Below the pieces are notes generated by a model. That model was given only the letters and a program-made list of their open reading frames with translations, searched no databases and had not been told where the DNA came from. The translations under genes and the position numbers were made by a program. 57,480 nucleotides of DNA. Origin: a virus. The stretch is taken from the IMG/VR virus record IMGVR_UViG_3300046534_000186, positions 1 to 57,480 of that record; one strand, 5' to 3'. Positions 1 through 57,480 of the stretch are shown here, piece by piece. Each line of letters starts with the position of its first letter. The first letter of the stretch is position 1.

Positions 1-177
1 TTGCTATGGATTATAAGGAGAAAGTAGATATACATGGTGAGAAGATACAACAAGCTAAGCTAGCACCCGATGTCACTGTGGATATAGCAGGAGTTGGTAC
101 TCTGAAGTTTGAAAGGTTGAGTTTTAAGACAACTACTCCTAGTCTAGATAACCATGCTAGAACAGGGTTTGTCAACT
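1..177. repeat. Terminal overlap with the right end of the window
   Basis: Bases 1-177 match 57304-57480 one for one except at base 50 (A here, G at 57353), a silent change in a glutamine codon. The reading frame continues exactly across the joint. The simplest reading is a circular or circularly permuted genome whose assembly overlaps itself. A true short terminal repeat is possible, but these repeats usually do not fall inside an essential gene. Confidence 0.9.
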
Positions 178-551
178 TGATACAAGCAACAGATGCACTC
201 ATAGCTAGGCATATCCTAGTATCACTCGCAAGGCAGGGAGCACAACACGCAATATCAGTTCATGACTGTTTCAGAGTTAATATCAACGACTTCATAGATG
301 GTAAGCTGCATAAAGCAGTAAAGGATGCATACAAGGCTGTGTTTGTGAATATGGATGGTAGAGGTGATATACTCAAGAACTACTTCCAAGGTGTCAAGGA
401 TGCTGGAGGCACGTTCCCTAAGTCATCAATAGCCTATATGTTAGCTGATGGAGCCTTAAAGATGGATGATTGGGTTGAAGTAGAGGATATCATTGACTCT
501 TTAGAGAATAAGATAGATGGTGTGGAAGGTGCTTACTACTTCTCCAAGTAA
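1..551 (+). CDS. Single-subunit RNA polymerase A, C-terminal part (gene continues from 57303)
   Basis: This is the 3' end of the gene that begins at 55767; joined across the contig ends it encodes 695 residues. The ATG at base 6 is internal (residue 515), not a start. The segment holds palm motif C, VHDCF, with the second metal-binding aspartate at about residue 601 (T7 RNAP D812 equivalent). Before it lies a helix (residues about 573-598) like the one that leads into motif C in this family. The C terminus is a hydrophilic tail ending YYFSK. The gene is followed by a structured, gene-free stretch. Assignment to the single-subunit RNA polymerase family rests on motifs T/DxxGR, A, B and C all being present across the joined gene. 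Confidence 0.85.
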   Translation, partial: AMDYKEKVDIHGEKIQQAKLAPDVTVDIAGVGTLKFERLSFKTTTPSLDNHARTGFVNLIQATDALIARHILVSLARQGAQHAISVHDCFRVNINDFIDGKLHKAVKDAYKAVFVNMDGRGDILKNYFQGVKDAGGTFPKSSIAYMLADGALKMDDWVEVEDIIDSLENKIDGVEGAYYFSK

Positions 552-760: not shown

Positions 761-868
761 TACCTAGAAATATAGGCAGAGTCTGATTAAGGTCAAGACC
801 AAGTAGAACTATAGGTAGAGTCTGATTAAGAGCAAGACCAAACAGAATTATAGGTAGAGTATCATCCC
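751..868 (+). promoter_or_regulatory. Three tandem 39-40 bp repeats, candidate phage RNA polymerase promoters
   Basis: Three diverged units (about 751-790, 791-829 and 830-868) each contain CAAGACC followed by a core close to AGAAnTATAGGTAGAGT. The TATAGG hexamers start at 771, 810 and 849, exactly 39 bases apart. The core resembles the 3' half of the T7 class III promoter (CACTATAGGGAGA), where transcription starts at the first G after TATA. A fourth core copy lies at 1760-1777. The genome encodes two phage RNA polymerases and all genes lie downstream on this strand. The repeat is directly visible; the promoter role is inferred. Confidence 0.5.
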
Positions 869-1469: not shown

Positions 1470-1762
1470 TGAGCAAGTCTATGCTAGAAATGTATAAGTT
1501 GTTTAAGAACGATCCCAATTGGAAGCAGCTTAGTTTAAAAGTACACAACCCAAAAGGATTTTACAGTGTTGCAATAGGAGAAACAGTAACAACACTAACG
1601 CAAGTAGACTTAAACTCAGACCAAGTAAGGGAAGTTAGATTAGTTAGTAGTAGTCGTGGAATGAGGCAATCTATTTGCGTGTCCTACAAGCTTGAACAAC
1701 CAGTACAGGATATAGCTCTAAAGTTTGTAGATAGTTCAACTGACCGAACAAATATCTTTTAG
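1469..1762 (+). CDS. Hypothetical protein (97 aa)
   Basis: I place the start at the ATG that overlaps the stop of the membrane peptide (TAATG). The frame stays open upstream to a TTG at 1328, but that stretch overlaps the peptide gene and lacks its own ribosome site. The product is soluble and mixed alpha/beta, beginning MSKSMLEMYKLFKNDP and ending in a polar tail. I recognise no family. The stop codon falls inside the fourth copy of the TATAGGTAGAGT repeat region, so a promoter for the following genes may overlap the end of this gene. Confidence 0.5.
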   Translation: MSKSMLEMYKLFKNDPNWKQLSLKVHNPKGFYSVAIGETVTTLTQVDLNSDQVREVRLVSSSRGMRQSICVSYKLEQPVQDIALKFVDSSTDRTNIF

Positions 1763-1777
1763 AAATATAGGTAGAGT
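1760..1777 (+). promoter_or_regulatory. Fourth copy of the TATAGGTAGAGT element
   Basis: TAGAAATATAGGTAGAGT repeats the core of the 751-868 array about 900 bases away, without the CAAGACC part. It lies at the head of a 500-base untranslated stretch preceding the gene at 2279. As with the array, a phage RNA polymerase promoter is inferred from resemblance to the T7 initiation region. Confidence 0.4.
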
Positions 1778-2278
1778 ATTACCTAAGCAAGCAAACGGTT
1801 CCCTAGGAAGGAGCCACTGGCACTCATAGCTTTACACGCTTGTGAGTTGGGTGCTATTACAAATTAGACTCACGAGATGACTGACTACGCAAGAAGTGTA
1901 GCAGGTAAGGTTCCGCCTATCTACACAAGGGAGCCAACAAATTTAGGGTTACAGGTTAACCTTACATCGGCACGACAGCCGTAACATTAGACAAGTTCCT
2001 ATTAACTTTGTGTAATGTGTCCATAGTAACGACAGCACCTTCATAGCTGTAAGTGAAGTAGCGCGTATAAAATCTCGAAAGGTAGCGCGAACATAAATGA
2101 GCCTTAGAGTTGAAAAGAAGATATAAGAAATCTTCACACAAGCAATAGAGGAGTAAGGGACCTAAAGAAGAGCCTTTGACAGCTAGGAATTAGACTAGCA
2201 GGTTCGGCTCTCACCTATATAAGTAGAGCCAATAACGCACAATGTGCATCTATCTTAACTTAATAAAGAGAAACTATT
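1763..2278. other. Gene-free region, probable long 5' leader
   Basis: About 500 bases with no convincing gene. Visible structure: CTCA/TGAG stem around 1829-1852, GGTTA/TAACC near 1951-1965, a direct repeat GTAGCGCG (about 2056 and 2085) and the nested hairpin at 2169-2211. The end has a ribosome site (AAAGAGAAACTATT) for the gene at 2279 that is nearly identical to the one before the gene at 9147. Confidence 0.5.
2169..2211 (+). ncRNA. Nested hairpin with conserved TTGACaGCTAG...CTAGCA core
   Basis: AGAGCC (2169-2174) pairs with GGCTCT (2206-2211); inside, GCTAG (2182-2186) pairs with CTAGC (2195-2199). The core TTGACA-GCTAG-GAAT-TAGACTAGCA recurs with two small changes at 9092-9115, in both cases about 30-90 bases upstream of a gene with the same ribosome site. 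It is probably a shared regulatory or processing element of the leader RNA. A sigma70 -35 box (TTGACA) is present but no good -10 follows. Confidence 0.45.
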
Positions 2279-3287: not shown

Positions 3288-3367
3288 ACACTAGCTCAAC
3301 CTTGACAATATCTTGGTTGGGCTTTAAAAGTTACACTCAACTAACTCATAACTATTTGGAGCTAACT

Positions 3368-3727: not shown

Positions 3728-3740
3728 CTGGGAGATAGCT

Positions 3741-4091: not shown

Positions 4092-4104
4092 CTAGGAGCT
4101 AACT

Positions 4105-4449: not shown

Positions 4450-4462
4450 CTAGGAGATAACT

Positions 4463-4822
4463 ATGACCGAGTTAACAGACCAAGACTATTTCGATAAGAC
4501 TGTCAAGCATATTATAGCTCAAGGTGATGCTTGTAAAAATAAGAGTGGGTCCTGCGTATACCGTAATGGCTCAAAGAGTTGTGCAGTAGGTTACTGGATT
4601 CCTGAAGGACATCCAGCAGAAAGTGAAACAGGTAGTGTAGACTCATTAGTTGATACCTACCCAGACCTAAAAGGAGTTGCATGGCCTGATACAGAACATG
4701 GAGTTTATTTAGCTCTGGAGTTGCAGAGGTTGCATGATGATAACATAGTAGGAACTGAGGCTTTTGAAAAAGGAGTAGCTTGCATAAAGTCTGAATTTAA
4801 ACAGGTTGGGATTTTACTATGA
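4463..4822 (+). CDS. Tandem paralogue 4 of the CxYR/CAVGYWIP family (119 aa)
   Basis: The start follows AGGAGATAACT. Core motif CVYRNGSKSCAVGYWIP; GVAWPDTEHG and LHDDNIVGTEAFEKGV follow. The C terminus differs from copies 2 and 3 and carries a hydrophobic end (VGILL). Its stop overlaps the next start (ACTATGA), whereas the other copies are spaced by 13 bases. Function unknown. Confidence 0.7.
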   Translation: MTELTDQDYFDKTVKHIIAQGDACKNKSGSCVYRNGSKSCAVGYWIPEGHPAESETGSVDSLVDTYPDLKGVAWPDTEHGVYLALELQRLHDDNIVGTEAFEKGVACIKSEFKQVGILL

Positions 4823-5166
4823 CTAAATTAACAGAACAAGACTATTTCGATAAGACTGTCAATCACATGGTACAACAAGGTGACGCCTGTATGTTAAATG
4901 GGTTCTGCGTATACCGTGCTTACTCAAAAAGTTGTGCAGTAGGTTACTGGATTCCTGAAGGACACCCAGCAGAGGGCGAAGTAGGTGGTGTAGACTCACT
5001 AGTTAATGGCTACTCAGATCTAGAAGGAGTTGCATGGCCTGCTACAGAAAATGGAATTGCTTTAGCTGGAAGGTTGCAGAATTTGCATGATAAAGATGTA
5101 GTAGGAACTGAGGATTTTGTAGAAGAAGTCGATAATATAAGATCTAGATTTAAACTAACTAACTAG
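4819..5166 (+). CDS. Tandem paralogue 5 of the CxYR/CAVGYWIP family (115 aa)
   Basis: It begins MTKLTEQDYF and overlaps copy 4 by four bases, so translation is probably coupled. Core motif FCVYRAYSKSCAVGYWIP; then GVAWPATENG and LHDKDVVGTEDFVEEV. It is the most acidic copy at the C terminus and has lost the NG between YR and SC that the middle copies share. It is followed by 50 untranslated bases rich in CAATCAATCAACTAACTAACT before the helicase gene. Confidence 0.7.
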   Translation: MTKLTEQDYFDKTVNHMVQQGDACMLNGFCVYRAYSKSCAVGYWIPEGHPAEGEVGGVDSLVNGYSDLEGVAWPATENGIALAGRLQNLHDKDVVGTEDFVEEVDNIRSRFKLTN

Positions 5167-7437: not shown

Positions 7438-7528
7438 CTATTACCGTTCTTACAAAGCTCCAGACCCTAAATGGGACTGGGAAATCTTATTAATAATGGT
7501 TACTTTAATGGTACTTTTAGCATTATAG
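7427..7528 (+). CDS. Small membrane protein (33 aa)
   Basis: The ATG lies inside the end of the previous frame (GATGAGCAG), an 11-base overlap typical of coupled phage genes. The first 18 residues are polar and aromatic (MSSSYYRSYKAPDPKWDW), followed by a single membrane span (ILLIMVTLMVLLAL) to the C terminus, so probably a C-terminally anchored peptide. The stop overlaps TTATAGGCAGAA, which resembles the candidate promoter core. Function unknown. Confidence 0.45.
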   Translation: MSSSYYRSYKAPDPKWDWEILLIMVTLMVLLAL

Positions 7529-7549
7529 GCAGAATATAAGGAGAAATAA

Positions 7550-23962: not shown

Positions 23963-24154
23963 ATGTACGCGCTATATAAGGTGAGATCAGATTGGCACAA
24001 GTTCTACGAAGTGTTGTTTGTATCAGAATACACTCATAGGCTTATTGTCAGATCAAGGTTATACAAAGAGAATTTGTTAACTGAAGATGAACTTGAAGAT
24101 TTGGATAACGACTGTGAAGATTTTCTAGTTATATTAAAGGTAGAGTTATTATGA
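23963..24154 (+). CDS. Small hypothetical protein (63 aa)
   Basis: The ATG follows TAGGAGAAACTA. It begins with a beta-like aromatic stretch (MYALYKVRSDWHKFYEVLF) and ends with an acidic helix (EDELEDLDNDCEDF). It overlaps the ligase start by four bases. No family recognised. Confidence 0.55.
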   Translation: MYALYKVRSDWHKFYEVLFVSEYTHRLIVRSRLYKENLLTEDELEDLDNDCEDFLVILKVELL

Positions 24155-25113
24155 ACATATTTCAATTTTTAGGATTACCCAAGGATTATCGTAAGGAAAA
24201 TAAAGTCACACAGCTAGTCAAGCACTGGGACGAGGTAATAGATAAACACAAAGAAGGAAAAAAGTTTGTTACACAAATTAAACGTGATGGAGTATGCTCA
24301 TTAACAGTAGTTAAAGGCTCTAAGATTGCTATATTCTCTAGGACAGGTAAGCAATTTACTAACACAAGTGACTTGATAGAGAAAGTAGATGAACTACGAC
24401 TTCCAGATGGTGTGTATATGGGTGAAATATGGCTACCTAAGGAAGTGTGTTCACTTGAAAAGCTATCTGGTATGGTTAATCCTAACAGGGTAAACTTTCT
24501 TGATATAGATGGAGTGCTACTAACTTCACGACTAAAGTTAAGCTTCTTTGATCTACTTAGCATTGAGTCTTTTATAAGAGGCTCTAACTACTATAAGTTT
24601 AAGGCTCGGCACAGTTCTTTGTCCTATTCAGTAAGACTTAACCCTTCAATAGATGTTCTAGGTGCTACGATAGCAGAAAATGAAGAAGTAATAAATTCTT
24701 ACTTTAAATCTGCTACTGATGTCGGGGAAGAAGGTATAGTAATTAGAGATCCTGACGCAAGTTGGGAAGCTGGTCACAAGGGCTGGAGAGTCATGAAGAT
24801 GGTTCGTGGAATTGATTACGATCTCAAGTGCATTGGTTGGGAAGAAGGTACTGGAAAGTATGCTGGTAAGGTGGCTAACCTGATCTTTGAATGGAAAGAT
24901 GGTAAGACTGTAAAGGCTATGCTTGGTAAAGGATGGACTCATAATATGGCTGAGCAAATGTTCCGTGATATCATAGTTGGATCTACTGAGGATGAGAGCT
25001 ATCCTCTGGGTAATATCTTCCAAGTGTATGCGCTAGAAGAGAGCAGCAAAGGTAAGCTTCGCCTCCCTAAAGTAGGTGAGCGAAGGTTTGATAAAGGAGA
25101 GCCAGATGTTTAA
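24151..25113 (+). CDS. ATP-dependent DNA ligase (320 aa)
   Basis: Seals nicks during replication. Adenylation motif K-x-D-G is in QIKRDGVCSL with nucleophile Lys44; motif III-like region GVYMGEIWLP; motif IV EGIVIRD and motif V WRVMKM are present (about 191-215), followed by an OB-fold part ending in ERRFDKGEPDV. The length is near T7 gp1.3 (359), with a minimal two-domain layout. The end overlaps the next small gene. Confidence 0.9.
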   Translation: MNIFQFLGLPKDYRKENKVTQLVKHWDEVIDKHKEGKKFVTQIKRDGVCSLTVVKGSKIAIFSRTGKQFTNTSDLIEKVDELRLPDGVYMGEIWLPKEVCSLEKLSGMVNPNRVNFLDIDGVLLTSRLKLSFFDLLSIESFIRGSNYYKFKARHSSLSYSVRLNPSIDVLGATIAENEEVINSYFKSATDVGEEGIVIRDPDASWEAGHKGWRVMKMVRGIDYDLKCIGWEEGTGKYAGKVANLIFEWKDGKTVKAMLGKGWTHNMAEQMFRDIIVGSTEDESYPLGNIFQVYALEESSKGKLRLPKVGERRFDKGEPDV

Positions 25114-25575: not shown

Positions 25576-27417
25576 ATGATTCAACTTGATGGCGGCGTTA
25601 TATTGCCTGATGGAAAAGGTAAAGGGTTTGCCAAACCTGATGGGATTAGTCCTAACAAGTGGCAAACCATGAAACCTGAGATGTGGGAGAGGGCGTACTT
25701 ACATTGCCTGTATTCTCTACCAATACATTTCGACCTACCACTACACTCAGTAGTACCTCGGCTAGCCAAGAAAATGCTAGAAGCATCAGACCCTTTCAAT
25801 GTAGCCTTAAGGTTTATGGGAGAGATGGAGATAGCTGGCTATGTAGAGTTTGAGAGAGGTATGGATGAGAGAATAGTCCAACCAACTAAAAAGTTTCTAA
25901 GTCTGGATCTAGATTGTGAAAGAGCGCCTACCTCGGCCATAACCTTTCCTAAGATGATCGGGGAAGGAATACCTAGGTCGCCAATTAGAGGTGGGGTAAG
26001 GAGTGCTAAGAATGATGAGGTTGCTGACATAACTTCAGAGATTGCTAGCCAAGAGTTTGAAGTAAACCAGCACATGCTCGACCTAACAACTGAGTTCCCT
26101 CCTCAGTTTGATAAAACTTCTTCAGCTTATATGTATAAGAGAGCTATGAAGTCTTCTAAAACCTTAGGAAGCAGGAGGTTTAGATTTCCTTATTTCCTAG
26201 ATAGTAGATCAAGGACTTACACTGATACTACTTGCGGAATAACTCCTCAGGGAGCTGACCATGAGAAGGCTTTGGTAATACCTACCTACGCTGAGAAGCT
26301 TACACCTTCAGGATTGATAGCACTAATAGAAGCTGCTAATGGCTACTCCGAACTAGACTTTACTCAAGAAGACATGTGTAGGCATATCAATGATCCCAAA
26401 GGCTACCACCATGAATGGTCTAAGTCTGATAAGCCATACTCGTACCTTGCATGTGCAGCCCTCGTATACAGACACTCAAAAGATCCTAATGAGCCATTGC
26501 CAGCATTCAAACCTTTAGATGGTCGATGCTCAGGGCTACAACATTGGTCTGCTGTAGTTCGCTCAAACGCGATTACACGCCATCTGGGGATGCATATAGA
26601 TGAGGCTGACTTGGACATCTATGAGAAGGTTGCGGCTGACTGGAGAGAAACGCTTGAACCTGAGTGGCAGTATTTGGCTACTAGAAAAGCGGCCAAGATT
26701 CCTGTTATGACATGGGGATATAATGCTACTATGATGACTTCGATGGAGCATATAGGAAAACTATATGGGGCAAAGTCTAAATGGGATGATAATATCCAAG
26801 CGTATGTCACTGATGGTAAGGGACTAGAGAGGGGTGTCACGAGCAAGTTCGGGGCTCAGATATACAGACAGTTGCAAGATACTTTAGGCCCACTGCAAGG
26901 CGCTGTGAGCTGGGTGAGTGATTGTGCAGTACTAATATCTAAGATAGGTAATGTAGAAATACGATGGCCTACTCCTGATGGTTTTACCTGTATGCAACGT
27001 AAGGTCAAAGGAGAGACTAAAGATCTTGCTTGCACTCTATCAGATGACAGCAGGTTTCAATTAGACATACTAGACTTCTCCAAAGATACTCCCAACACTG
27101 GTAAGCACAGGTCAGCAATAGCACCTAACATAATCCATTCGCTAGACGCTACACATCTAAGGATGGTGGCTAGAAGGTTGAAGGAGTTAGGTTTGCCTAT
27201 GATATTTATACATGACTCATTCGCTACACATTGTAATCATGAACAAGCATTGTATGATATTATTGTTGATACCTTTATAGAACTGTACAGCATGGATTAC
27301 TTGCAAGACCTTAAGAAGTATTGGGAAGAACTATATGGGGTCGAGTTGGATGATCCTCCAGAGCTGGGCGAATGGAAGCCCGAATCTATAAGAGGTCTTA
27401 AGCGATTCTTTCTATGA
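25576..27417 (+). CDS. T7-like single-subunit RNA polymerase B (613 aa)
   Basis: Phage transcription enzyme. Motifs in order: T/DxxGR as DSRSRTY (Asp209, Arg213); A as LDGRCSGLQHW (catalytic Asp315); B as R370-KAA-K374-IPV-M378-TWG-Y382-N383; C as HDSF (Asp547). APNIIHSLDATHL precedes motif C as in T7. It is about 270 residues shorter than T7 RNAP, mostly before the T/DxxGR motif, so much of the N-terminal promoter-binding domain is missing. The usual Gly after the motif B tyrosine is Asn. It lies at the end of the replication block, followed by a terminator, and probably drives late genes (inference). Confidence 0.92.
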   Translation: MIQLDGGVILPDGKGKGFAKPDGISPNKWQTMKPEMWERAYLHCLYSLPIHFDLPLHSVVPRLAKKMLEASDPFNVALRFMGEMEIAGYVEFERGMDERIVQPTKKFLSLDLDCERAPTSAITFPKMIGEGIPRSPIRGGVRSAKNDEVADITSEIASQEFEVNQHMLDLTTEFPPQFDKTSSAYMYKRAMKSSKTLGSRRFRFPYFLDSRSRTYTDTTCGITPQGADHEKALVIPTYAEKLTPSGLIALIEAANGYSELDFTQEDMCRHINDPKGYHHEWSKSDKPYSYLACAALVYRHSKDPNEPLPAFKPLDGRCSGLQHWSAVVRSNAITRHLGMHIDEADLDIYEKVAADWRETLEPEWQYLATRKAAKIPVMTWGYNATMMTSMEHIGKLYGAKSKWDDNIQAYVTDGKGLERGVTSKFGAQIYRQLQDTLGPLQGAVSWVSDCAVLISKIGNVEIRWPTPDGFTCMQRKVKGETKDLACTLSDDSRFQLDILDFSKDTPNTGKHRSAIAPNIIHSLDATHLRMVARRLKELGLPMIFIHDSFATHCNHEQALYDIIVDTFIELYSMDYLQDLKKYWEELYGVELDDPPELGEWKPESIRGLKRFFL

Positions 27418-27440: not shown

Positions 27441-27499
27441 AGGCTCTTTCTACTCCCGTTACTACCCCGCCTGATTAGGGAGAGGGAGTGGTAGAGCCT
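27441..27499 (+). terminator. Long-stem terminator after RNA polymerase B
   Basis: AGGCTCT...CTACTCCC pairs with GGGAGTGG-TAGAGCCT across 27441-27499, with a loop of about 27 bases and a TATTTAT tail. It separates the replication block from the packaging genes. Confidence 0.75.
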
Positions 27500-27520
27500 A
27501 TTTATAACTAGGAGAACCTA

Positions 27521-27982
27521 ATGAATGATGTATTAGAAATATCAAATGAATTCGAGCTTATAGCTCATGCTATGGTTCAAACTCGTGGTGATCTTTCTAA
27601 GGCATCTAGGTTTGACAGTGTAGATTATAATGCTATGAGCTTAAGGGCTGTAGTAAAGAACAACCCTGAGATACGTGGACGTTATCATGAGTTACTTGCC
27701 GAAGAGATGCAAGAGAAAGGTCTACATATAGCAGAAAGAATACTAAATATGGCTACTCTACAAGAGCAAGCTATGGGTGGTAAGATTATGGTTACTAATG
27801 AAGCTGGTGAACAGGAAGAGATGGACATACCAGCAGATATTAAAACAGTAATAGAGTTATCAAAAGAGATATCTAGGCTCATAGCAGAGGGTAGAGGACA
27901 GCCGATGTCTGCCAAATCCACTATAGTATTAGCAAGCAAGGAAGACGCAAAAGATTTACTGGAGTCTTTCTTAAACTCATGA
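27521..27982 (+). CDS. terS: Terminase small subunit (153 aa)
   Basis: Called mainly from position: it precedes and overlaps the large terminase gene by four bases. The sequence is helical and acidic, with a helix-turn-helix-like N-terminal half (LIAHAMVQTRGDLSKASR, then MSLRAVVKNNPEIRGRY) that would recognise DNA and a C-terminal helical region for oligomerisation. The ATG follows TAGGAGAACCTA. Confidence 0.75.
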   Translation: MNDVLEISNEFELIAHAMVQTRGDLSKASRFDSVDYNAMSLRAVVKNNPEIRGRYHELLAEEMQEKGLHIAERILNMATLQEQAMGGKIMVTNEAGEQEEMDIPADIKTVIELSKEISRLIAEGRGQPMSAKSTIVLASKEDAKDLLESFLNS

Positions 27983-29571
27983 GTAACATCAGTAAGATGA
28001 GTGACTATGAAGTTAATGCACTTAGAGATTACCTAAGTGGAGACTTTGAAGCTTTTAGTAAGTTCTGTTTTAAAATAATGACAGGACAGAAACTAATACA
28101 CGTAGATTACTACGTTGTACTTTTTGAAGCTATCCAGCAATTGATAGATCAAGAAACTACAAGAATGATTATTAACATACCACCCAGAGCTGGCAAGACA
28201 CTTTTAATAAGTATCTTCTTGCCGCTCTTTGCTTGGGTGAGAAACCCCTCAGGACAAACCATCCTGACTGGTTTTAACTCAGACGTACTAGCGGAATGCT
28301 CAGGTTACATAAGAACAATAATGAGTGATGATGATTTCCGCAAAGTCTTTCCAGATGTTGTAATTGATAACAATAAGAAATCTGTTGAGAGACTTGGTAC
28401 AATGAGTGCAGGAGTGCTTCACGCTATACCTACTACTGGTAAAATGACTGGTAAAGGGTGTGGAGCACTTGTGGAAGGGTTTGCGGGTATTATGGCTATT
28501 GATGATGTTATTAAGCCTGATGATGCTAACTCTCCAACTGAAAGGGATAAGATCAATAACCGTTTTAGTAACACACTGTTATCTAGGTTAGCTACAGAAA
28601 CTACGCCACTGGCTATTATAATGCAAAGATTGCATAACAATGACCTATGCGGATTTCTTATGAGGGGTGGAAGCTCTGATACTTATAAATGGCTTAACAT
28701 ACCTGGCATAGTCACTAAGGAGACAGGTAGTAAAGAATGGTATGACAAACAGGTAAAGGACTATGGGTACACTAATGTAGAACCTATGTTGTACTCACTA
28801 CCTGAGTCAGAGACTAGGGAGTATGTAGAGCGAGAGTTTGAAGGTAAGATGCAGAGTGTATCAAGCTTTTGGAGCATTCGTAAAACAGTAGACACTTTAC
28901 TAGGATTGTGTGAGAAAGATTCATACACCTTCTATTCTCAATACATGGGAAGACCTGTTGGCAAAGGCAAATCTCCAATGAGTTCTGAGTATATAAGAAC
29001 CTATGAAGATATAGATGAATTCCGTATTCGCTACACTTTCATGACTGCTGACACAGCATCAACAAAACAATCATACTCTGACCCGACTGTAGCTTGTCTA
29101 TGGGGCATGACTAGGTGTAGTAAGTTAGTACTAATGGATGTAGTTATAGATAAGTGGGAGACTCCTGAGTTAGTAATAGCAATGCGTAAGTTCTGGGTTG
29201 ACCATAATGTGTTTAATCCAAACAGACCAACATGGAAGCCAAGAGGCTTCTACATGGAAGATAAGTCAAGTGGCTTATTTTTAAACCAACAGTTCTTAAA
29301 AGATGGTACTGTCAGAGTTAAGCCTGTGCCTAGAGATGGTACTCCTAATAATGACAAGTTCTCTCGGTTCTTAAACTCAGTTCCTTACTTTAAAGCAGGA
29401 AGAATTGTGCTACCTAAGAATCATGAACATACACCTTACATGACTAGAGAACTTCTAGGCCAATCAGAATTAGGGTCATCCACTGGACATGACGATGTAG
29501 CTGACAATGTAGCTGATGCGGTAGTAGTAGCATTTTCTCACGGCTCTATGCCCTATGAAGACTGGTCTTAA
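27979..29571 (+). CDS. terL: Terminase large subunit (530 aa)
   Basis: Packaging ATPase and nuclease. Walker A is PPRAGKT (residues 68-74), Walker B MAIDDVI with Asp175-Asp176, followed by the coupling region. The C-terminal RNase H-like nuclease shows FMTADTAS (first Asp near 353) and a late GHDDVADNVADA. The length fits the family. It is the first gene of the virion block. Confidence 0.93.
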   Translation: MSNISKMSDYEVNALRDYLSGDFEAFSKFCFKIMTGQKLIHVDYYVVLFEAIQQLIDQETTRMIINIPPRAGKTLLISIFLPLFAWVRNPSGQTILTGFNSDVLAECSGYIRTIMSDDDFRKVFPDVVIDNNKKSVERLGTMSAGVLHAIPTTGKMTGKGCGALVEGFAGIMAIDDVIKPDDANSPTERDKINNRFSNTLLSRLATETTPLAIIMQRLHNNDLCGFLMRGGSSDTYKWLNIPGIVTKETGSKEWYDKQVKDYGYTNVEPMLYSLPESETREYVEREFEGKMQSVSSFWSIRKTVDTLLGLCEKDSYTFYSQYMGRPVGKGKSPMSSEYIRTYEDIDEFRIRYTFMTADTASTKQSYSDPTVACLWGMTRCSKLVLMDVVIDKWETPELVIAMRKFWVDHNVFNPNRPTWKPRGFYMEDKSSGLFLNQQFLKDGTVRVKPVPRDGTPNNDKFSRFLNSVPYFKAGRIVLPKNHEHTPYMTRELLGQSELGSSTGHDDVADNVADAVVVAFSHGSMPYEDWS

Positions 29572-33473: not shown

Positions 33474-34808
33474 ATGGCAGATGATAATAGCCAATCCGTG
33501 ACTAGAATTAAAAAGTCTCGGAACAACCCTCATAGTCTTTACGATGGTCTATCCAACCTAGCTACAGGACTAGGAGGTGCTAAAGATAAATCAACATTTA
33601 ATAGGTGGGATCATTCAGGTGCCAACTATGACCATGTTGCTTTGTCTGTACGGTATAGGGAAGATTGGTTGAGCCAAAAGGTCTGCCAGATTGTACCTCA
33701 AGATATGACAAGAGAGTGGAGAAACTTTGAATCAGATGAGGCTAAAGAAGCTGATGAGGATTTTGAAGTTGCAAAACTGTTTCGTGAAGCCTACAAATGG
33801 GCAAGGTTGTATGGTACATCATTTATTATATTAGATATTGATGATGGACGTACAACAGACAAGCCAGTAAATTGGAAAAACCTAAAGCTAGGATGTATAC
33901 GATCAATGCATGTAGTTGATAGGACTCGTATAGTAGCTACAGGTGACATTGACCAAAAACCAATGAGTGTTACTTTTGGGATGCCTGACCACTATCAATT
34001 TGTACAAAGCCCAACTCCTATTCATAAAGATAGGCTTATACGTTTTGAAGGTACAGAGCTACCTGTGTATGAAAGACAAAGAAATTTGTGGTATAGTGAT
34101 AGTATACTTATACCTTTACTAAAACAGATCGACAACTTTCATACTACTAGTTTTGCTGCGGCCCAGATGGTGCAGGAAGCTAATATTGACATTATTAAAG
34201 TAGATGGTTTAGCTAACATACTTGAGTCTGACCAAGGCACTTCGGCCATGATCCAAAGGTTTTCTGATTGGAAGTCTATCAAGTCAGTGTTCGGTGTATC
34301 TATACTTGATAGTACTGAAGAGTACGACCAAAAGACTGTTCAGCTCTCTGGAGTTAAAGACCTTATTTGGGAGTACTTAAAGATGGTGTCTGCTTCTGTC
34401 TCAATACCTGCTACTCGTTTTCTTAGTGCATCACCTGACGGTATGAACGCTACTGGAGAATCTGACCTAGTAAACTACATTGAGACATTACAGGGACTAC
34501 ATAAGGATATATTTGTACCAAGGCTTAAGATTATAGATACCTTACTAGCTGCACATTATGGGTTAGAAGAAGAGAAACTTAAGTATAGTTGGGGATGTAT
34601 CTTTCCAGAGTCTGCTGGACAAAAAGCTGTTCGTGAGAAAGATCATGGAGAGTTTATATGTAGGCTAGTTGAATCAGGTGTCTTAGACACTGAATCTGCC
34701 CTAGCTGAAATGCAAACTAAGGGAGGCATAAGTAAAGATGCTAAAACTGGGATTAACCCAAATGAAGTCAAATTAAAATCAGGAGACAAGAATGTTAAAA
34801 GCACATAA
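33474..34808 (+). CDS. Portal protein, DUF1073-type (444 aa)
   Basis: Forms the dodecameric DNA gate of the head. Signs: an N-terminal basic stretch followed by DGLSNLATGLGG, the family segment QKVCQIVPQDMTREWRNF near 65-82, KWARLYGTSFIILDI, the helix QIDNFHTTSFAAAQM and a C-terminal ATRFLSASPDGMNATGESD segment close to the DUF1073 clip/stem region. The size fits. It overlaps the protease gene by 17 bases. Confidence 0.85.
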   Translation: MADDNSQSVTRIKKSRNNPHSLYDGLSNLATGLGGAKDKSTFNRWDHSGANYDHVALSVRYREDWLSQKVCQIVPQDMTREWRNFESDEAKEADEDFEVAKLFREAYKWARLYGTSFIILDIDDGRTTDKPVNWKNLKLGCIRSMHVVDRTRIVATGDIDQKPMSVTFGMPDHYQFVQSPTPIHKDRLIRFEGTELPVYERQRNLWYSDSILIPLLKQIDNFHTTSFAAAQMVQEANIDIIKVDGLANILESDQGTSAMIQRFSDWKSIKSVFGVSILDSTEEYDQKTVQLSGVKDLIWEYLKMVSASVSIPATRFLSASPDGMNATGESDLVNYIETLQGLHKDIFVPRLKIIDTLLAAHYGLEEEKLKYSWGCIFPESAGQKAVREKDHGEFICRLVESGVLDTESALAEMQTKGGISKDAKTGINPNEVKLKSGDKNVKST

Positions 34809-36414: not shown

Positions 36415-37503
36415 ATGAAGACAGTAAAAGCATATGCTATTAACGATTCCAACCAGCCCTTGGTAGACCAAGAGTTAGTTGATTTCGTGATTAACGACGC
36501 AGTACACCACCTGATCACTGTAGGTCAGTTGAACGATGACGAAGGTGTGTTCTTTCAGCGCCAACTTGAATACATCCAAGCACAAAGCTATGATGTCCTA
36601 TACCCTGAGTTGAAGGGTCGAACCTTGTTCGTAAACAACACAGAAGGCGGCGAAGGTATTGAAACTATTACTTACCGTAGCTATGACAAGCGTGGCGAGA
36701 CTGCCATTATTGCAGGCAAGGCAACTGACCTTCCTCGTGGTGACATCTCAGGTAAAGAGTATAGCATCTCTGTTCGTACTCTAGGTAATGCATTCGGTTA
36801 CTCTCGTCAAGAGATGGCTGCTGCAAGGGTTACTGGTATGCCTTTGGATGCACGTAAAGCTGAAGCTACTCGTAAGTCTTATGAAGAGAAAGTTAATCAG
36901 CTTATCTTCTTTGGATCTCCTGATAACAACCTCCAAGGTTTCTTCCACGGGCCAGTAGGTTCTCCTGCATTGACAGCTTCTCGTACTGCTGTTGCTGGTT
37001 CTGCTGCTTCTGGAGCAACAGCTTGGCGTACAGATAAGACTCCTGATGAAATCATCGCTGACCTTACCACTGCTTTGACAGCAATGTATGCAGATACCTT
37101 GCAGATCTTTAGCCCTGATATGATAATCATGTCTGTAGCTGATAAGAAGCTATTGCAGAATACTCCAAGATCTATTCACTCAGATGTAAGCATCTTAAAT
37201 TGGTTCGTAGCTAACAACGACTTTATTACTTCTGCTGACCAGATTAAAGATGTAAACGAAGTTGCTGGTATCTACCCAACTGTAGCTAACATTGCAAATG
37301 AGATTAAGCCTGGAAATGGTAGTGCTGGTTTTACAGTAGTAGCATCTGGACAAGATAACATGCGTATTCGTGAGCCTTTCCCTTACATCCATTTACCTGT
37401 ACAGCTTAAAGGTTTGGAATTTGAGATTAACTGCTACGGCCGATTCGCTGGCGTAGAGATGATCCGACCTGCTGCTGTTGCTCATTGGCTTGGCATTGGC
37501 TAA
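36415..37503 (+). CDS. Major capsid protein, DUF2184-type (362 aa)
   Basis: HK97-fold shell protein by family resemblance and position. N-terminal LNDDEGVFFQRQLEYIQA, RTLFVNN and GDISGKEYSISVRTLG with SRQEMAAARVTG; Ala/Thr-rich centre; C-terminal EPFPYIHLPVQLKGLEFEI and FAGVEMIRPAAVAHWLGIG match the pattern of DUF2184 capsid proteins. The codons appear more uniform than those of neighbours, as expected for the most expressed gene. A strong hairpin follows. Confidence 0.85.
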   Translation: MKTVKAYAINDSNQPLVDQELVDFVINDAVHHLITVGQLNDDEGVFFQRQLEYIQAQSYDVLYPELKGRTLFVNNTEGGEGIETITYRSYDKRGETAIIAGKATDLPRGDISGKEYSISVRTLGNAFGYSRQEMAAARVTGMPLDARKAEATRKSYEEKVNQLIFFGSPDNNLQGFFHGPVGSPALTASRTAVAGSAASGATAWRTDKTPDEIIADLTTALTAMYADTLQIFSPDMIIMSVADKKLLQNTPRSIHSDVSILNWFVANNDFITSADQIKDVNEVAGIYPTVANIANEIKPGNGSAGFTVVASGQDNMRIREPFPYIHLPVQLKGLEFEINCYGRFAGVEMIRPAAVAHWLGIG

Positions 37504-38995: not shown

Positions 38996-39543
38996 GTACT
39001 AACAACGTAATACTTCATGAGTCTGATGTACAAATAATACAGACTTTCATAGATACTATGGTAGGTATACCTAAATACTCCTACCCTGCGCGGCAGAACA
39101 GTGCGCCTAAACCTAAAGGGGACTTTGCGCATATTAGACTGTTAGAAGAGTACCAAGTAGGAATACCTCACACAAAAGTTTTTGCTTCAGATGAAAATAC
39201 TACCACTTACAGGATCTACAGCCCAACAAGGTTGAGGTTCCGTATAGGTCTTGTTGATACTAATGGTCTAGCTTCTGCAAAAATAATGCATAGCTGGACT
39301 ACTGAAGTCATGAGAACTCTAATGATTTCCTCTAAGGTTGGATTTATTAAGTGTGATCCTCTATCAAATGAAAGTGCAAAACTAGAAAAAGAATGGGAGA
39401 CTCGTCAAGGGTTCTCCTTAGAAGTATATAAGACACGCGTATTCGAGGAAGTAGTGAACAACATTACATCTTTATCAATATCAGGAAGTTTTATTTCTGG
39501 TGATAGTACTTACCTTCTCGACTTCGACATTAACAATATCTAA
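38992..39543 (+). CDS. Tail terminator/neck protein (183 aa)
   Basis: Resembles the 'neck terminator protein gp12-like' family of BcepMu/Bcep781-type phages: SDVQIIQTFIDTMVG at the start, YSYPARQNSAPKPKGDFAHI, a strand-rich middle and VGFIKCDPLSNESAKLEKEW. It would cap the tail tube and join it to the head. The end of its frame overlaps only untranslated bases before the sheath gene. Confidence 0.7.
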   Translation: MSTNNVILHESDVQIIQTFIDTMVGIPKYSYPARQNSAPKPKGDFAHIRLLEEYQVGIPHTKVFASDENTTTYRIYSPTRLRFRIGLVDTNGLASAKIMHSWTTEVMRTLMISSKVGFIKCDPLSNESAKLEKEWETRQGFSLEVYKTRVFEEVVNNITSLSISGSFISGDSTYLLDFDINNI

Positions 39544-39556
39544 CAAAGGAACAATT

Positions 39557-41041
39557 ATGGCGATTGAAATTACTGAATTCACCAATGTCTCTATATCAGT
39601 CTCGCCTGTTGGTGTAGCTGGTGGAAACTTTGGCATCTTAGGATTCCTTACTGTAAACACAGACCTAGCGGTTGCTGGTAAAAGTATTACTCCTGCTGAA
39701 CGAGCTAGGTCTTACACAAGTCTAGCTACTGTAGGTGGCGACTGGCAAGCTGGCTCTGAAGTGTATAAAGCTGCAAATGCTTTCTACGCGCAAACCCCTA
39801 CACCAACAGACTTTACTGTACTTATGTCTTTCGAGACTGCACAGAAAGCTAGCCTGATTGGTGGTGGTACTCTTACTGCTATTGAAATGATAGCTGCCGA
39901 AGGTGCTTGGAGCGATCAAGATTTTACTATGACTATTGATGGAGTAGATGTAATTATCAATGATCTAGCAATATCTGGTGGAGATGCTACTTTTGATGGC
40001 ATTGCTACTGAGCTACAGAGTGCTATCGTAGCAGCAGGCGCGACAGCAACAGTCACGCACAATGGTTATCAGTTTATAGTTACTGGAAACACCTCAGGTT
40101 CTTCTGGGGCAATTACCTTTGCATCAAGTACTGACGCAGCACTAGCCCTTGGCTTAACTGCTTCTTCAGCTAAACTAAGCCAAGGCTTAGACGTTGAGAC
40201 TGCTGTTGAAGGTTTGGCTGCTAATTTAACAGCAGGCAAGGAATGGATTGGATTGGTAACACACCGTAAATTCCGTGACTACACAGGCGGGGCATTTGGC
40301 TCTGGCCAATCTGCGGAAGACATTGGTGTGTGGGCTGAAGGTGCTAAGAAGATATTTTGCAACACCACCAACGACTTAACTACCCTTACCTCTGGTGCGA
40401 CAAACACAGCCAGCGCTATGAAAGGTAGAACTTTGAGATTTTCTCTTACTACCTTTAGCCGTGACGTATTATCTTATCCAAGTGCATCTATCTTTGGTAG
40501 AGCAGCTTCTGTAAACTTTTCAGCTATTGGTAGCACCATTACCCTTAACTTGAAGCAGATGCCTACCGTTGCTTCTGAAGATTTGACTCCTTCTGAATAT
40601 GCTAACATGAAGTCTTACTTCTGTTCAGCCGTAGTACAGATAGGTAAGTCTGTCAATGCCTTTACTGACTCTCGCATGGCCTCCGGTTCATGGCTTGATA
40701 CTACTCATGGTTTGATGTGGTTAGAGAATCGTGCTGAAGTTGATATGTTTAACTTGCTTTATGTGAACAACACTAAGGTTCCTTATACTCAGGTTGGACT
40801 GAATACTGCTATTGGCACTCTTAGACGTAGCTTAGAGGCTGCCGTTCGTAATGGACTGGCAGGCCCAGGCTACCTACCCGATGGTACGTACCTTGCCGAT
40901 GGCTTCTCTATTTCGGCTGTATCTTTAGCGGACACTCCGTCTAGTGATAAAGGTAATCGACTGTACGCTGGCCTTTCTTTTAAGATGGTTGGTGCTGGTG
41001 CATTGCATGAAATTACCGTTTCTGGTAGCTTCTCCGAGTAA
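39557..41041 (+). CDS. Tail sheath protein, DUF3383-type (494 aa)
   Basis: Contractile sheath. I use the ATG at 39557 (AAAGGAACAATT before it); the frame continues upstream over the previous gene. It begins MAIEITEFTNVSISVSPVG, typical of DUF3383. The middle holds an Ig-like or inserted beta region (about 120-220, TIDGVDVIINDLAISGGDAT). The C-terminal domain has LGTLRRSLEAA-type sequence (AIGTLRRSLEAAVRNGLAGP) and PDGTYLADGF. It confirms myovirus morphology. Confidence 0.85.
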   Translation: MAIEITEFTNVSISVSPVGVAGGNFGILGFLTVNTDLAVAGKSITPAERARSYTSLATVGGDWQAGSEVYKAANAFYAQTPTPTDFTVLMSFETAQKASLIGGGTLTAIEMIAAEGAWSDQDFTMTIDGVDVIINDLAISGGDATFDGIATELQSAIVAAGATATVTHNGYQFIVTGNTSGSSGAITFASSTDAALALGLTASSAKLSQGLDVETAVEGLAANLTAGKEWIGLVTHRKFRDYTGGAFGSGQSAEDIGVWAEGAKKIFCNTTNDLTTLTSGATNTASAMKGRTLRFSLTTFSRDVLSYPSASIFGRAASVNFSAIGSTITLNLKQMPTVASEDLTPSEYANMKSYFCSAVVQIGKSVNAFTDSRMASGSWLDTTHGLMWLENRAEVDMFNLLYVNNTKVPYTQVGLNTAIGTLRRSLEAAVRNGLAGPGYLPDGTYLADGFSISAVSLADTPSSDKGNRLYAGLSFKMVGAGALHEITVSGSFSE

Positions 41042-45200: not shown

Positions 45201-46137
45201 AGAGATTTTAGATACTCTTGGCCCAATGAAATCTAGAAATGAGATTATTGCTATGGGGCAAGATTTCCTTCCCTTTGTGCAGGGAGAAATTAATAAGTTT
45301 CCTGTGGGAGATACGAACAGGGCTATTGTAGCAGAAGTCTATGGACAAAATTCTCAGTTAGCTGCTAGCACAGCCACTATGGAAGAAATGCTTATACCTA
45401 GAGCTATGAATGTTAAAGGAAATGAAGAGTCTAACCAAGGATACCAAAGTGTTAAGATGTATCTACAGGGTAAGGAAGAGAATCTAGTGGGGGAAGGTGG
45501 TAAAGCAGGAGGTGCAACCACTTACACTGCGGAGTACGCTAGGGATAGAGCCGACTTACTAGTGTGGATAAAGGAGAATCCTGTGATAGCCGCTTCCGCT
45601 GTTGTAGGGGGTGGACTAACTTTAGCTGCATACAACTTAGCTATGGGTAACAGCCCCGCAAAACCGCTACCTGAAGGTGGGGCGGGTGAGATGTTATCAA
45701 ACCGTGCCAAACTTAACTCAGTAGATGGACCTGTCTATGCTCCTGATCATGACATAAGCCAAGTAGGTGCAGTCACAGGATCGATGGCTAACTTCAATAT
45801 AGGTAAGTCTGGAGTCAAGTTACCCGAAAATAAAAACTCAGGAACTGGAGGTGAAGTGTCAGGAGTAAATAGCTTCTGGAATTCTGAAAATAATAACAGT
45901 AAGTTGCCTAGTGGTTTAAACTCTCCTCAGGATGGTAGTATTCCACTGTCTGACCTCGTGACACCTACAGCATTGCCTAACACTAACATTATTAAAGATA
46001 AGCAACCAATATCTATATCTACTGTAAATGAAAATAATGTTGATATACAGATCTTTAATGACAAAGATAGTACTGAAGTTAGAGCTACAGTTGGTGAAGA
46101 TGAATATGTAAATAGGGAGAACGGTAATTCAACTTAA
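42256..46137 (+). CDS. Probable tape measure protein with embedded lambda-exo/YqaJ-type nuclease domain (1293 aa)
   Basis: It is the only long gene between the chaperone and baseplate genes, so should be the tape measure. Residues 1-560 are charged and helical. Residues about 570-790 form a PD-(D/E)XK exonuclease domain with all motifs: QRTPAWYKAR...ITAS (573-590), GxxxE-like Glu639, SPDG with Asp678, ELK with Glu693 and Lys695 and QMQLQ (Gln712-Gln716). Then a Lys/Gln-rich segment, an Ala/Lys/Glu coiled coil (about 850-905), and a hydrophobic segment (about 1109-1130, IAASAVVGGGLTLAAYNLAMG-like) before a Ser/Asn-rich tail. Tail-tube passage into the host could deliver the nuclease; alternatively it acts in tail assembly or DNA ejection. 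ATG after TAGGAGTTCCT. Confidence 0.8.
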   Translation: MDDDVADQTEREYSGENVEQDYTGGTQASWNERGLSNEDFDNSISGQMDLREEGDDLADAILGLSNVEAKDSFIGNADLITSETNELERFSHMSESVKKAAVEVLEAQTQHLSGKALVVAKASYEAALGKSSDQFIKGLNVQATSPVTTLDPTSFSMKAVMKDGKIVYRAEQNRIKPYRDSFIAQSLSIGYDTEGKFDPIELDSGYSITGNVEQDIGENEKEELIEVFNQTKLINQPNIIGSFEPKASKQDVMVARSMLESVESYEARGPGSQVSGNYDSNIKVGVGGSIEGFYDDAFDKNSEEDKKLNRGSKDKRVKADLDFALAMANISDLAELYIDPRAKGGEMYGKQKAAVELALIKRFIDGQMSDEAKSILPLPNETGVTGLRVTRGSIGGQQGTPFTRLEFGLEANKRGWTPEGKYLKEGEENPYWRYLGTVGQSLFPKKFVKDEFGEEDVEANALNTRTRKYEEQVALDKARATRKILLEQMPTLRDETAGQSRTPGFDKPYGDQENIQHILDKVFGSGEDLKEFTGDNGSEIKEAIEAGNEAIERELNLPMKDFVGPSNLEGIEQRTPAWYKARENLITASKLTSTSGQLLDAEGMAAQLALEKYAKTDPELAKEIEFIGNSHVIDGQKGEKLALKEFLMMQKTEGDELTHTEVGLLQAEEMPGFGASPDGRLRDLEGNNRGLLELKYLTSGSMKGALKKYTPQMQLQMAVTGEKETNFFALDKYTGESIHEVVKADPDMQAEILEVGKQALEMSKTLTKEEAIEMKKQTKAQRRKSNLEERNETGKGQESSYEAKDYTDNEATSFNANEVNESKEKTFKRDKAKALNRDFESIAAMKEFDQSITEASEAAKKEAANNKAAARATKDRENADRDAAKATQKLRDAAIGAAKSLLGIVLSAKDSAMDTINLARRNGFDEDAVRGQEFAMVAEGGIPLNVAKSAIDNAGSTLRKLRTGSTAGAELRRMNTQYGSTPEILDTLGPMKSRNEIIAMGQDFLPFVQGEINKFPVGDTNRAIVAEVYGQNSQLAASTATMEEMLIPRAMNVKGNEESNQGYQSVKMYLQGKEENLVGEGGKAGGATTYTAEYARDRADLLVWIKENPVIAASAVVGGGLTLAAYNLAMGNSPAKPLPEGGAGEMLSNRAKLNSVDGPVYAPDHDISQVGAVTGSMANFNIGKSGVKLPENKNSGTGGEVSGVNSFWNSENNNSKLPSGLNSPQDGSIPLSDLVTPTALPNTNIIKDKQPISISTVNENNVDIQIFNDKDSTEVRATVGEDEYVNRENGNST

Positions 46138-55203: not shown

Positions 55204-55562
55204 CCTTAAAGTGTTATTTGCCATAACTAAGAAGCTTTAGTCTTGTTTCAGTAACCCAAGACCTACCTACACCATTAGAAGCTAACATCAGCTCTATCCC
55301 CTCGTTTAAAGACCAGCTTAAAGCTTCGGTCGGACCTAACCCTAGGCTTAGTCCGGACTTGTATGTTAGAGATAGATGCTAGGTAAGTACAGAAATTATA
55401 AAATATATATAGAAGCTTGCTATGTTAGGCAAAATTAAATAATATATTGAGATTGCTCGTGATGCTTGGGTGTGTGTGTTATAAGGAGTCTCTTTGCCTT
55501 TTTGACTATTCTATTTGGCTCTTTGTATCACATGTATTACTAACTTAACTAAGGTATCAACT
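55204..55562. other. Gene-free upstream region of RNA polymerase A
   Basis: No convincing gene. Contains inverted GACC/GGTC segments around 55311-55337, an AT-rich run (ATTATAAAATATATATAGAAG) near 55397 and two sigma70-like candidates further down. It ends with the ACTAACTTAACTAAGG leader string before 55563. Confidence 0.5.
55454..55531 (+). promoter_or_regulatory. Candidate host sigma70 promoters for the early polymerase gene
   Basis: An extended -10 (TGTTATAAG, 55477-55485) is preceded by a weak TTGCTC; then TTGACT (55502-55507) with TATCAC (55526-55531) at 18 bases spacing. Both point at the polymerase gene. A host-read promoter is expected for a gene whose product starts phage transcription. 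Confidence 0.4.
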
Positions 55563-55682: not shown

Positions 55683-55766
55683 GAGAACTAACTAATGACT
55701 AACTCAACTAACTCAACTAACCTAACTAACTCATCTACTAACACTAACACTAACGAGGAAGCAATC

Positions 55767-57480
55767 ATGACCGAAGCAAACAGAGAAGCATTCACAATCG
55801 AATCCAATCGCAGATCAGAATTCGTGAGCAAACTAACAAGCACACTTTACAAGAACGGACAAAGCACTATGGATAGCCTTGTCATAGCCACAGCGATGCT
55901 AGGGAGTATCGACAAGCTTGGCTTAGTAAGCATTGACAAGTGGGTTAAGAACGTGAATAAGTTCATACACAGGACAGGAGAGCAAGGGACTAGTATCATA
56001 GCATCCTCAGTGGATGGTACAACAACCCATAGAGACTTCGTGATACCCACATGGTTCGATACTGTGGTACATGCTGAGTTGATCACTAGGGATGGTGAGG
56101 TAGGTGAGAAGCTAATGAAGATGATTCAGAAGCCTGATAAGGCATATCCAGCACTAGCTGTGGATGGTGTGACTAGAAAGCATCCAATGATACCTAGCAA
56201 CTCAACGTACAAGTTAGGTAGTAGAGCATCAAACTTAGCAAAAGCTGGATTAGAGGTGCAGGAAGATACACCTTACACATCGAACAACTTCATGGTATCT
56301 TTAGCAGAAGGTGTTGGTAAGCATATAGAGTTAGATGATAGATATGTCATTGATGGCTCTAGGTTAATGATTAGCGAAGGCAACTTACCTAGAGTTAGTG
56401 AGCACAAGGCAGATCACAGGATCAGGACATATCAAAGTGATTGTCATGGTCCACAGTTTGCAGCTTCAGACATGAGTAGGTCATTCATGGACTTGTATGG
56501 GGTAAGCACAGACTATAGTGCAAAGAAAGTGGTAGCTGTCCTACGAGATGAGATGCTAGACATGATAACTGGCAAGACCATGAAAGATCTTGACCATGCT
56601 ATACAGATGCTTAGGAACTCAGGTGGCTTAGTTATGTTTATAGTTGAGCAACTAACCTTGAAGGGTCACGACAATGCAGACACATTGCCTGAAGAGTGTG
56701 TTGATGACTACATAGTAAGTAAAGTATGGAGCTTTGTCAAGGCTAACAGGTATCTGATGGCTATAGAGGCTGGTAAGAAGCCTTACATAGGTATGGCCTT
56801 TGGTGTAGATGCCAAGTGCTCAGGCCCACAGTTAGGCTCTATCATGACTGGAGACATTAAGTTAGCTGAAGCGTGTGGATTTGGTAGCAAGAGAGCTGAA
56901 CGTGATGCTTATGAGCTAGCAATTGAGATATGTGAGAAACGTGGAATATCTGGACTATCTAGGAAGGTTATTAAAACAGCATACATGGGTATATTCTACG
57001 GTCAAGCTTACATGACCTTCTGTGATATTAGCAGTTACGGAGCAAAGCCTGGACAACATAACCCTAGGCTCTTGAAGGTGCTAAAAGGTATCAAGGTAGA
57101 TGGAGTGAGTGATGCGCAAAAGCTTGAGGAACAAGCTAAGATCTTCCACGCAGCTATCGAATCCTCATTCGGTAACATGTCTGCTCTAAGGAAAGAGATT
57201 AAGCTGGCTCATTACCACTACGAGCAATCTGACAGTGGTATGCCGATCAAGGTATTTGATACTACAAAGCCTACTATGTACAGTATGCCTGATGGATCAT
57301 TCGTTGCTATGGATTATAAGGAGAAAGTAGATATACATGGTGAGAAGATACAGCAAGCTAAGCTAGCACCCGATGTCACTGTGGATATAGCAGGAGTTGG
57401 TACTCTGAAGTTTGAAAGGTTGAGTTTTAAGACAACTACTCCTAGTCTAGATAACCATGCTAGAACAGGGTTTGTCAACT
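55767..57480 (+). CDS. Single-subunit RNA polymerase A, N-terminal part (gene continues at base 1)
   Basis: Joined with 1-551 it encodes 695 residues. I choose the ATG at 55767 (CGAGGAAGCAATC before it); ATG 55695 would add 24 Asn/Thr/Ser residues. Motifs: T/DxxGR-like DHRIRTY (Asp216, Arg220) with CHGPQ behind it; A, FGVDAKCSGPQ (catalytic Asp348); B, R399-KVI-K403-TAY-M407-GIF-Y411-G412, an exact RxxxKxxxMxxxYG; C at residue 600 across the joint. It is clearly different from the polymerase at 25576. The length is close to the sum of the two N4 RNA polymerase II subunits (about 270 and 400 residues), so it may be a single-chain relative of that enzyme (inference). Confidence 0.85.
   Translation, partial: MTEANREAFTIESNRRSEFVSKLTSTLYKNGQSTMDSLVIATAMLGSIDKLGLVSIDKWVKNVNKFIHRTGEQGTSIIASSVDGTTTHRDFVIPTWFDTVVHAELITRDGEVGEKLMKMIQKPDKAYPALAVDGVTRKHPMIPSNSTYKLGSRASNLAKAGLEVQEDTPYTSNNFMVSLAEGVGKHIELDDRYVIDGSRLMISEGNLPRVSEHKADHRIRTYQSDCHGPQFAASDMSRSFMDLYGVSTDYSAKKVVAVLRDEMLDMITGKTMKDLDHAIQMLRNSGGLVMFIVEQLTLKGHDNADTLPEECVDDYIVSKVWSFVKANRYLMAIEAGKKPYIGMAFGVDAKCSGPQLGSIMTGDIKLAEACGFGSKRAERDAYELAIEICEKRGISGLSRKVIKTAYMGIFYGQAYMTFCDISSYGAKPGQHNPRLLKVLKGIKVDGVSDAQKLEEQAKIFHAAIESSFGNMSALRKEIKLAHYHYEQSDSGMPIKVFDTTKPTMYSMPDGSFVAMDYKEKVDIHGEKIQQAKLAPDVTVDIAGVGTLKFERLSFKTTTPSLDNHARTGFVN

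Follow-up and report, generated by a model that had tools for sequence, protein, structure and literature searches.

The window, by which we mean the whole 57,480-nucleotide stretch of DNA analyzed here, is a virus record from IMG/VR whose ends share a 177-base repeat with one mismatch (1-177 and 57304-57480) and join into a circle of 57,303 bases. It contains genes for two single-subunit RNA polymerases (ssRNAPs), both on the + strand. RNAP1 is a chasevirus-type ssRNAP whose first 571 codons lie at 55767..57480 and whose remainder, which includes motif C, is read through the repeat and across the contig ends at 1..551; the joined protein has 695 amino acids (aa), or 719 aa if an in-frame ATG upstream at 55695 is taken as the start. 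RNAP2 (25576..27417) is a T7-related ssRNAP of 613 aa with a short N-terminal part. A sequence-only reading of this DNA had reported the DxxGR-type, A, B and C motifs in both proteins, and we find them as DHRIR, DAKCSG, RKVIKTAYMGIFYG and VHDCF in RNAP1 and as DSRSR, DGRCSG, RKAAKIPVMTWGYN and IHDSF in RNAP2; together with the catalytic Asp, Arg/Lys, Tyr and Asp they place both enzymes in the ssRNAP superfamily. The same reading had stressed a strict motif B ending in Tyr-Gly. This is correct for RNAP1, in which Gly follows the motif B Tyr in 22 of 22 aligned rows, as in the T7-like and N4 enzymes of the comparison, but it does not extend to RNAP2, where the corresponding residue (383 in the window) is Asn in 17 and Ser in 6 of the 23 aligned rows instead of Gly.

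RNAP1 was assigned from its open reading frame, its motifs, its relatives and the PHROG families. A Pfam search matched no family to it as a polymerase, but among the PHROGs it has hits to 'RNA polymerase' families (3e-10 and 1.7e-8). When RNAP1 was compared with 50,697 phage records, 103 matched, the best being Chaseviridae RNA polymerases at 22-24% identity; a search with the complete relative encoded at another locus, L018, matched 101 records, and the 60 matches listed are chasevirus-sized genomes of the same groups. The same kinds of evidence identify RNAP2, which has a Pfam match (PF00940, E 2e-46) and whose best-matching named relatives, at 27-30% identity, are enzymes of podoviruses (ParKuw1, Quill_5.2 and others). 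An RNAP2 scan of genome contigs gave four pattern matches, none of which is a relative. Structural modelling had been suggested as a check, and AlphaFold models of the window RNAP2 (mean pLDDT 88.9) and of the L018 relative of RNAP1, used in place of the window protein (mean pLDDT 88.5), both align best to T7 RNA polymerase, the former with Z 38.7 over 456 residues at 3.6 Å and the latter with Z 29.6 over 459 residues at 4.7 Å. The models thus predict a T7-like fold for RNAP2 directly and for RNAP1 by way of its relative.

The families of the two enzymes share about 16% identity in a profile alignment, and in profile comparisons RNAP2 matches the T7-like enzymes at E 6e-63, RNAP1 matches the T7-like enzymes at 9e-22 and RNAP1 matches RNAP2 at 1.6e-19. 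Our ssRNAP tree has 58 rows, including 24 RNAP2, 26 RNAP1, six T7-like podovirus enzymes and the N4 enzymes. All 24 RNAP2 rows form one clade (SH-aLRT 100) that is sister to the six T7-like enzymes (99) and falls outside the T7-like podovirus clade itself (RNAP2 100, T7-like 95, the latter represented by only six podovirus rows). The 26 RNAP1 rows stand on one side of a branch whose support is 60 with the N4 virion RNA polymerase (vRNAP) and 99 without it; they form two deep clades, window-type (12 rows, 100) and chase-type (14 rows, 99), and group with the Chaseviridae gp1 enzymes. The claim that one genome carries two distinct ssRNAPs is upheld by this tree, which puts RNAP1 and RNAP2 in separate clades, and recent duplication, the outcome against which a phylogeny had been proposed, is not what it returns. 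As judged from their sequences, both genes are intact and are not recent duplicates.

The sequence-only reading had also taken RNAP1 for a one-chain N4-type enzyme, equal in size to the two subunits of N4 RNA polymerase II (RNAPII) together. The accessible part of PMC4496689 gives 673 aa for gp15 plus gp16, which is near 695 aa but not equal to it. RNAP1 does have small features in common with N4 gp16, namely VHDCF(R) and T-G-D after motif A, its N-terminal part is short as in N4 RNAPII, and a 595-aa fragment of it has the gp16 family, phrog_2051, as its best PHROG match, although the general family phrog_414 fits the complete relative in L018 better than phrog_2051. Against this, the closest named relatives are the Chaseviridae gp1 enzymes, an RNAP1 profile compared with the PDB scores T7 RNA polymerase (8e-11) above N4 RNAPII gp16 (6e-7), and the tree has N4 RNAPII on a long branch that falls between the RNAP1 side and the T7/RNAP2 side, outside the RNAP1 clade. 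By relatives, PDB profile scores and tree alike, other ssRNAPs are at least as close to RNAP1 as gp15/gp16 are, and we consider it very unlikely to be a one-chain enzyme of the N4 RNAPII type.

The genes around the two polymerases are those of a myovirus, as had been proposed, with a tail sheath gene at 39500..41041. The window genes tested by tblastn follow the order of phiEcoM-GJ1: primase/helicase, polymerase, exonuclease, ligase, terminase, portal, protease, head protein, sheath and baseplate. The left neighbor of RNAP2 is an ATP-dependent DNA ligase (24151..25113, phrog_114). Downstream of RNAP2 are a 153-aa protein (27521..27982), which matched no family and is a possible small terminase, the terminase large subunit (TerL, 27979..29571, 44-47% identical to several members of the Chaseviridae), the portal (33474..34808, 53% to phiEcoM-GJ1) and the major head protein (36415..37503, 45% to phiEcoM-GJ1); all of these genes are on the + strand. 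RNAP1 heads the early end, and RNAP2 lies between the replication genes and the terminase and structural operon, as an extra gene inserted into the Chaseviridae order between the DNA ligase and the terminase. Its place between replication genes and terminase is kept in 8 of 8 aligned relatives, and GJ1 lacks the gene. In the window and each of the eight relatives, nine genomes altogether, RNAP2 heads the late operon.

The Chaseviridae (phiEcoM-GJ1, PM1, 4HA13 and others) resemble the window in having the same myovirus gene set and order, with RNAP1 as the first gene. Their genomes are 52-56 kb with one ssRNAP (PMC12842549), and one RNA polymerase is given for 4HA13 in the accessible part of PMC9699118; the window, with 57.3 kb and two ssRNAPs, falls outside the Chaseviridae profile. 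It also differs in having separate 153-aa and 530-aa genes instead of a single longer TerL and in its promoter motif. The Chaseviridae have terminal repeats of about 3 kb; the repeat observed here is the 177-base one at the ends of the contig, which may not be the true ends of the genome. The window phage is an uncultured myovirus, a distant cousin of the Chaseviridae, with two different ssRNAPs. The terminase region at 27521-29571 corresponds to one open reading frame of about 670 aa in the Chaseviridae and in the genomes G017-19, a possible gene fusion. Where the full frame is present, the TerL of the Chaseviridae has 675-711 aa (584-588 aa in three cut loci), and G017-19, which have the long terminase in common with the Chaseviridae, have frames of 670-671 aa.

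Profile scans of 2.9 million viral contigs found 41 RNAP1 loci and 44 RNAP2 loci; a scan of the viral contigs with the RNAP1 sequence alone found nothing, whereas the RNAP1 profile did find loci. We examined the 34 records behind selected loci of both profile scans, 22 of which (G012-G033) are longer than 50 kb. Eight of these 22 carry both enzymes and 14 carry RNAP1 only. Every RNAP2-bearing record above 50 kb besides the window (8/8) therefore also has RNAP1, and all 14 Chaseviridae-type records have RNAP1 only, the weak RNAP2-profile signals in them falling on the RNAP1 gene. The fragments G037 and G005 also carry both enzymes. In the set of records that includes G005, 11 fragments of 5 to 36 kb, only one has RNAP1. 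One RNAP gene of the window spans the contig ends, as might be expected if two genomes had been joined in one contig or one of the enzymes were dead, but the same pair occurs in other records from several metagenomes, so that neither a chimeric contig nor a chance reading can explain it, and conservation extends to the catalytic motifs. We regard an artefact of this kind as having next to no probability.

These records also bear on the origin of RNAP2. In a TerL tree rooted on three other terminases, the window type (6) is sister to the Chaseviridae plus G017-19 (97/96). The two-enzyme viruses are thus paraphyletic, and a single two-enzyme clade is rejected (p-AU 0.024). It follows from this rooted tree that the common ancestor probably had RNAP2 and that the Chaseviridae then lost it, with loss once or twice as the simplest reading. 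RNAP2 might instead have been gained twice or passed sideways, for which one can cite that the TerL tree includes just nine two-enzyme genomes and that the fork splitting the Chaseviridae around G017-19 is supported at 83/83. However, RNAP2 is one clade and occupies the same genomic place throughout, and its deep split between the G017-19 type and the window type agrees with the TerL tree. We find repeated gain unlikely and retain an ancestral RNAP2, probably lost in the Chaseviridae.

Downstream of RNAP1 we found a promoter-like motif on the + strand. Three 39-bp tandem copies of AGANNTATAGGYRGAGTM at 766..861 (766-783, 805-822 and 844-861) are proposed RNAP1 promoters; a fourth, perfect copy is at 1761..1778 and a fifth, with 2 mismatches, at 7519..7536. 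Allowing up to 2 mismatches, the window has 6 copies (5 on the + strand, 1 on the - strand) compared with 0.47 expected on both strands, and 0 of 100 shuffles had as many, with 3 of the 5 + strand copies belonging to one 39-bp tandem repeat. Among other genomes, G012 has 2 and G013 has 3 on the + strand and none on the - strand, G019 has one on the + strand, and six have none. A shorter 12-mer with up to 2 mismatches was no commoner than chance (21 versus 17.2). Position weight matrix counts trained on the + strand sites are circular and were excluded as evidence.

The motif has two forms downstream of RNAP1, AGANNTATAGGYRGAGTM (A-form) and TCTAGGTAGRGTA (C-form). The C-form, searched as TCTAGGYAGRGTA with at most 1 mismatch, is found 200-950 bases behind RNAP1 on the + strand in 6 of 14 loci: L021, L022, L027 (six copies), L028, L029 (one copy, with a mismatch) and L030. 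The A-form follows RNAP1 in L016 and L018, with a weak occurrence in L017. The remaining loci of the 14, L019, L020, L023, L024 and L026, showed neither form behind RNAP1, and of these L026, L023 and L020 carry just 15 to about 270 bases downstream of RNAP1; the RNAP1 ends of L020, L024 and L027 are approximate (rounded). At the level of genomes, searches of G014 and G017 gave no class-1 motif, and G015 has one C-form copy with a mismatch. The RNAP1 enzymes of the A-form viruses make up one group (98/98), and an alternative tree that unites the window with G014 and G015 can be rejected (p 3e-7). In the RNAP2 tree the RNAP1-like grouping is not significantly rejected (p 0.076), so that the motif might equally follow RNAP2. 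Given that its form follows the RNAP1 subclade, the motif is likely tied to RNAP1.

The Chaseviridae have a different motif, CATTAGTTGGATGTGA (up to 4 mismatches), with a strand bias in most of the loci tested: 13 sites on the + strand versus 2 on the - strand in GJ1 (including the sites 26984 and 41983), 5 versus 1 in Mangalitsa, and 1 versus 1 in Y2. Sites of this motif also stand before late genes. A candidate late promoter motif in G017 and G018 was dropped, since it was weak and mostly genic, with 13 + versus 11 - sites in G017 and 17 versus 6 in G018. Upstream of RNAP1 the window has a single-copy 10-mer, AAGGAGTCTC (55483..55492, + strand), that is strictly conserved in relatives; the window and 15 of 17 loci each have one copy, about 50-970 bases before RNAP1. 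The eleven other chase-type loci tested have no exact copy upstream of RNAP1, but among them G017 and G018 have one with a single mismatch at -134. This 10-mer may be a promoter, a packaging site or a processing site. A search of the region before RNAP1 gave no sigma-70-like site.

Directly downstream of RNAP2 and before the late operon is a conserved hairpin element (27443..27505, + strand), recognized by covariation and consisting of a stem, an internal loop GYUACYA(C)/RGA, a 3-bp stem and a loop. Across 14 sequences, 92% of the cells pair versus 65% in shuffles, the covariation score is 0.73 versus 0.22, and 9 of 10 pairs covary with changes on both sides, figures that come from hand-picked rows (the core matches plus L057) from which the structure was itself derived. 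With a covariance model, 75 sources (1.10 Mb) yielded 20 matches, each immediately 3' of an RNAP2 gene; these represent 17 of the 36 RNAP2 loci given, the remaining three coming from second copies of records already counted. Among 2.9 million viral contigs, 8 contain the strict core, and all 8 bear RNAP2. The element was not found in the G017-19 type or in several window-type viruses and so cannot be essential to every RNAP2. We rejected a known RNA, as there was no Rfam 15 match at E up to 1, and an intrinsic terminator, as the window has no run of T after the stem. A T7-like promoter starts with GGGAGA; a plain T7-like duplex promoter is disfavored here because the stems covary. A conserved CTAATG box lies upstream of the hairpin and is also present in some RNAP2 loci without the hairpin.

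The sequence-only reading had envisaged an early/late division of labor between the two polymerases. The gene layout fits such a division, and it is from this layout that we infer one between RNAP1 and RNAP2. We think it reasonably probable that this uncultured Chaseviridae-like lineage of myoviruses runs its transcription with two ssRNAPs, from host RNA polymerase to RNAP1 (early/middle) to RNAP2 (late), and that RNAP2 is ancestral and was lost in the Chaseviridae. Host RNA polymerase would first make RNAP1; RNAP1 would then read the early and replication genes, RNAP2 included, from tandem promoters of the form T(A/C)TAGGTAGRGTA just downstream of its own gene; and RNAP2 would then take charge of the late operon immediately downstream of it, in the region of the structured element. 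In the Chaseviridae, having lost RNAP2, RNAP1 promoters of the CATTAGTTGGATGTGA type would also serve before late genes. Motif searches found no RNAP2 late promoter motif, which counts against this model, as do the missing sigma-70-like site before RNAP1, the patchy spread of the class-1 motif among genomes, the chance-level frequency of the 12-mer and the concentration of three motif copies in one tandem repeat. The failure to find an RNAP2 late promoter also speaks for a rival arrangement in which RNAP2 also reads early or middle genes, or both enzymes share promoters, with no clean early/late split. The class-1 motif contains CTATAGG, which we take to resemble the T7 promoter core, and its spread shows no significant conflict with the RNAP2 tree. 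On the other hand, the motif forms track the RNAP1 subclades with strong support and RNAP2 is at the head of the late operon throughout the genomes compared, and we consider this rival arrangement fairly unlikely. Within the model of successive polymerases, a more tentative and rather doubtful extension is that RNAP2 and the hairpin form a late-transcription switch, RNAP2 starting or being licensed there on RNA or extruded DNA, with the structure replacing a linear duplex promoter; the Chaseviridae would then have lost both, and their late genes would have moved to RNAP1 promoters.

Phage N4 uses two ssRNAPs, vRNAP and the heterodimeric RNAPII, and then host RNA polymerase for its late genes, as described in the accessible part of PMC4496689. 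N4 and other Schitoviridae are like the window in having two phage ssRNAPs, minimal enzymes, in one virus (same part of PMC4496689), but RNAP1 is a single chain of another clade, and neither window enzyme is a giant virion RNA polymerase. The Autographiviridae, the kin of RNAP2, in several cases have their polymerase in a phiKMV-like place, after an endonuclease or ligase and before a head-tail connector or collar gene; they differ in being podoviruses with enzymes of 796-821 aa (883 aa in T7) versus 613 aa. In the accessible part of PMC8541194, the siphoviruses KASIA and Colwellia phage 9A have a T7-like RNA polymerase at the start of the structural region, with transcription of late genes proposed in KASIA; these belong to another virus group, and one RNA polymerase is mentioned there. 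No report of a pair of phage ssRNAPs such as this was found in the open-access literature searched. If our model is right, the N4 group is not alone in using two distinct ssRNAPs in a cascade, and the Chaseviridae, with their one polymerase, are the reduced form. The ICTV profile of the Chaseviridae describes their promoters as not identified (PMC12842549); the present comparison yields candidate RNAP1 promoters for the window type as well as the Chaseviridae, together with a new structured element linked to RNAP2.

Three further observations concern other parts of the window. Adjoining genes at 3302-5166 contain repeated DNA and are probably tandem copies of one small gene. At 2754-2864 there is an Rfam tRNA match barely above the gathering score and with large insertions, in which ARAGORN found no tRNA; in GJ1 a tRNA-Arg is annotated with the remark that it 'may contain an intron'. 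A 1293-aa protein (42256-46137) stands at the place of the largest virion protein of phiEcoM-GJ1 and has a YqaJ-like viral recombinase domain (E 1e-9).
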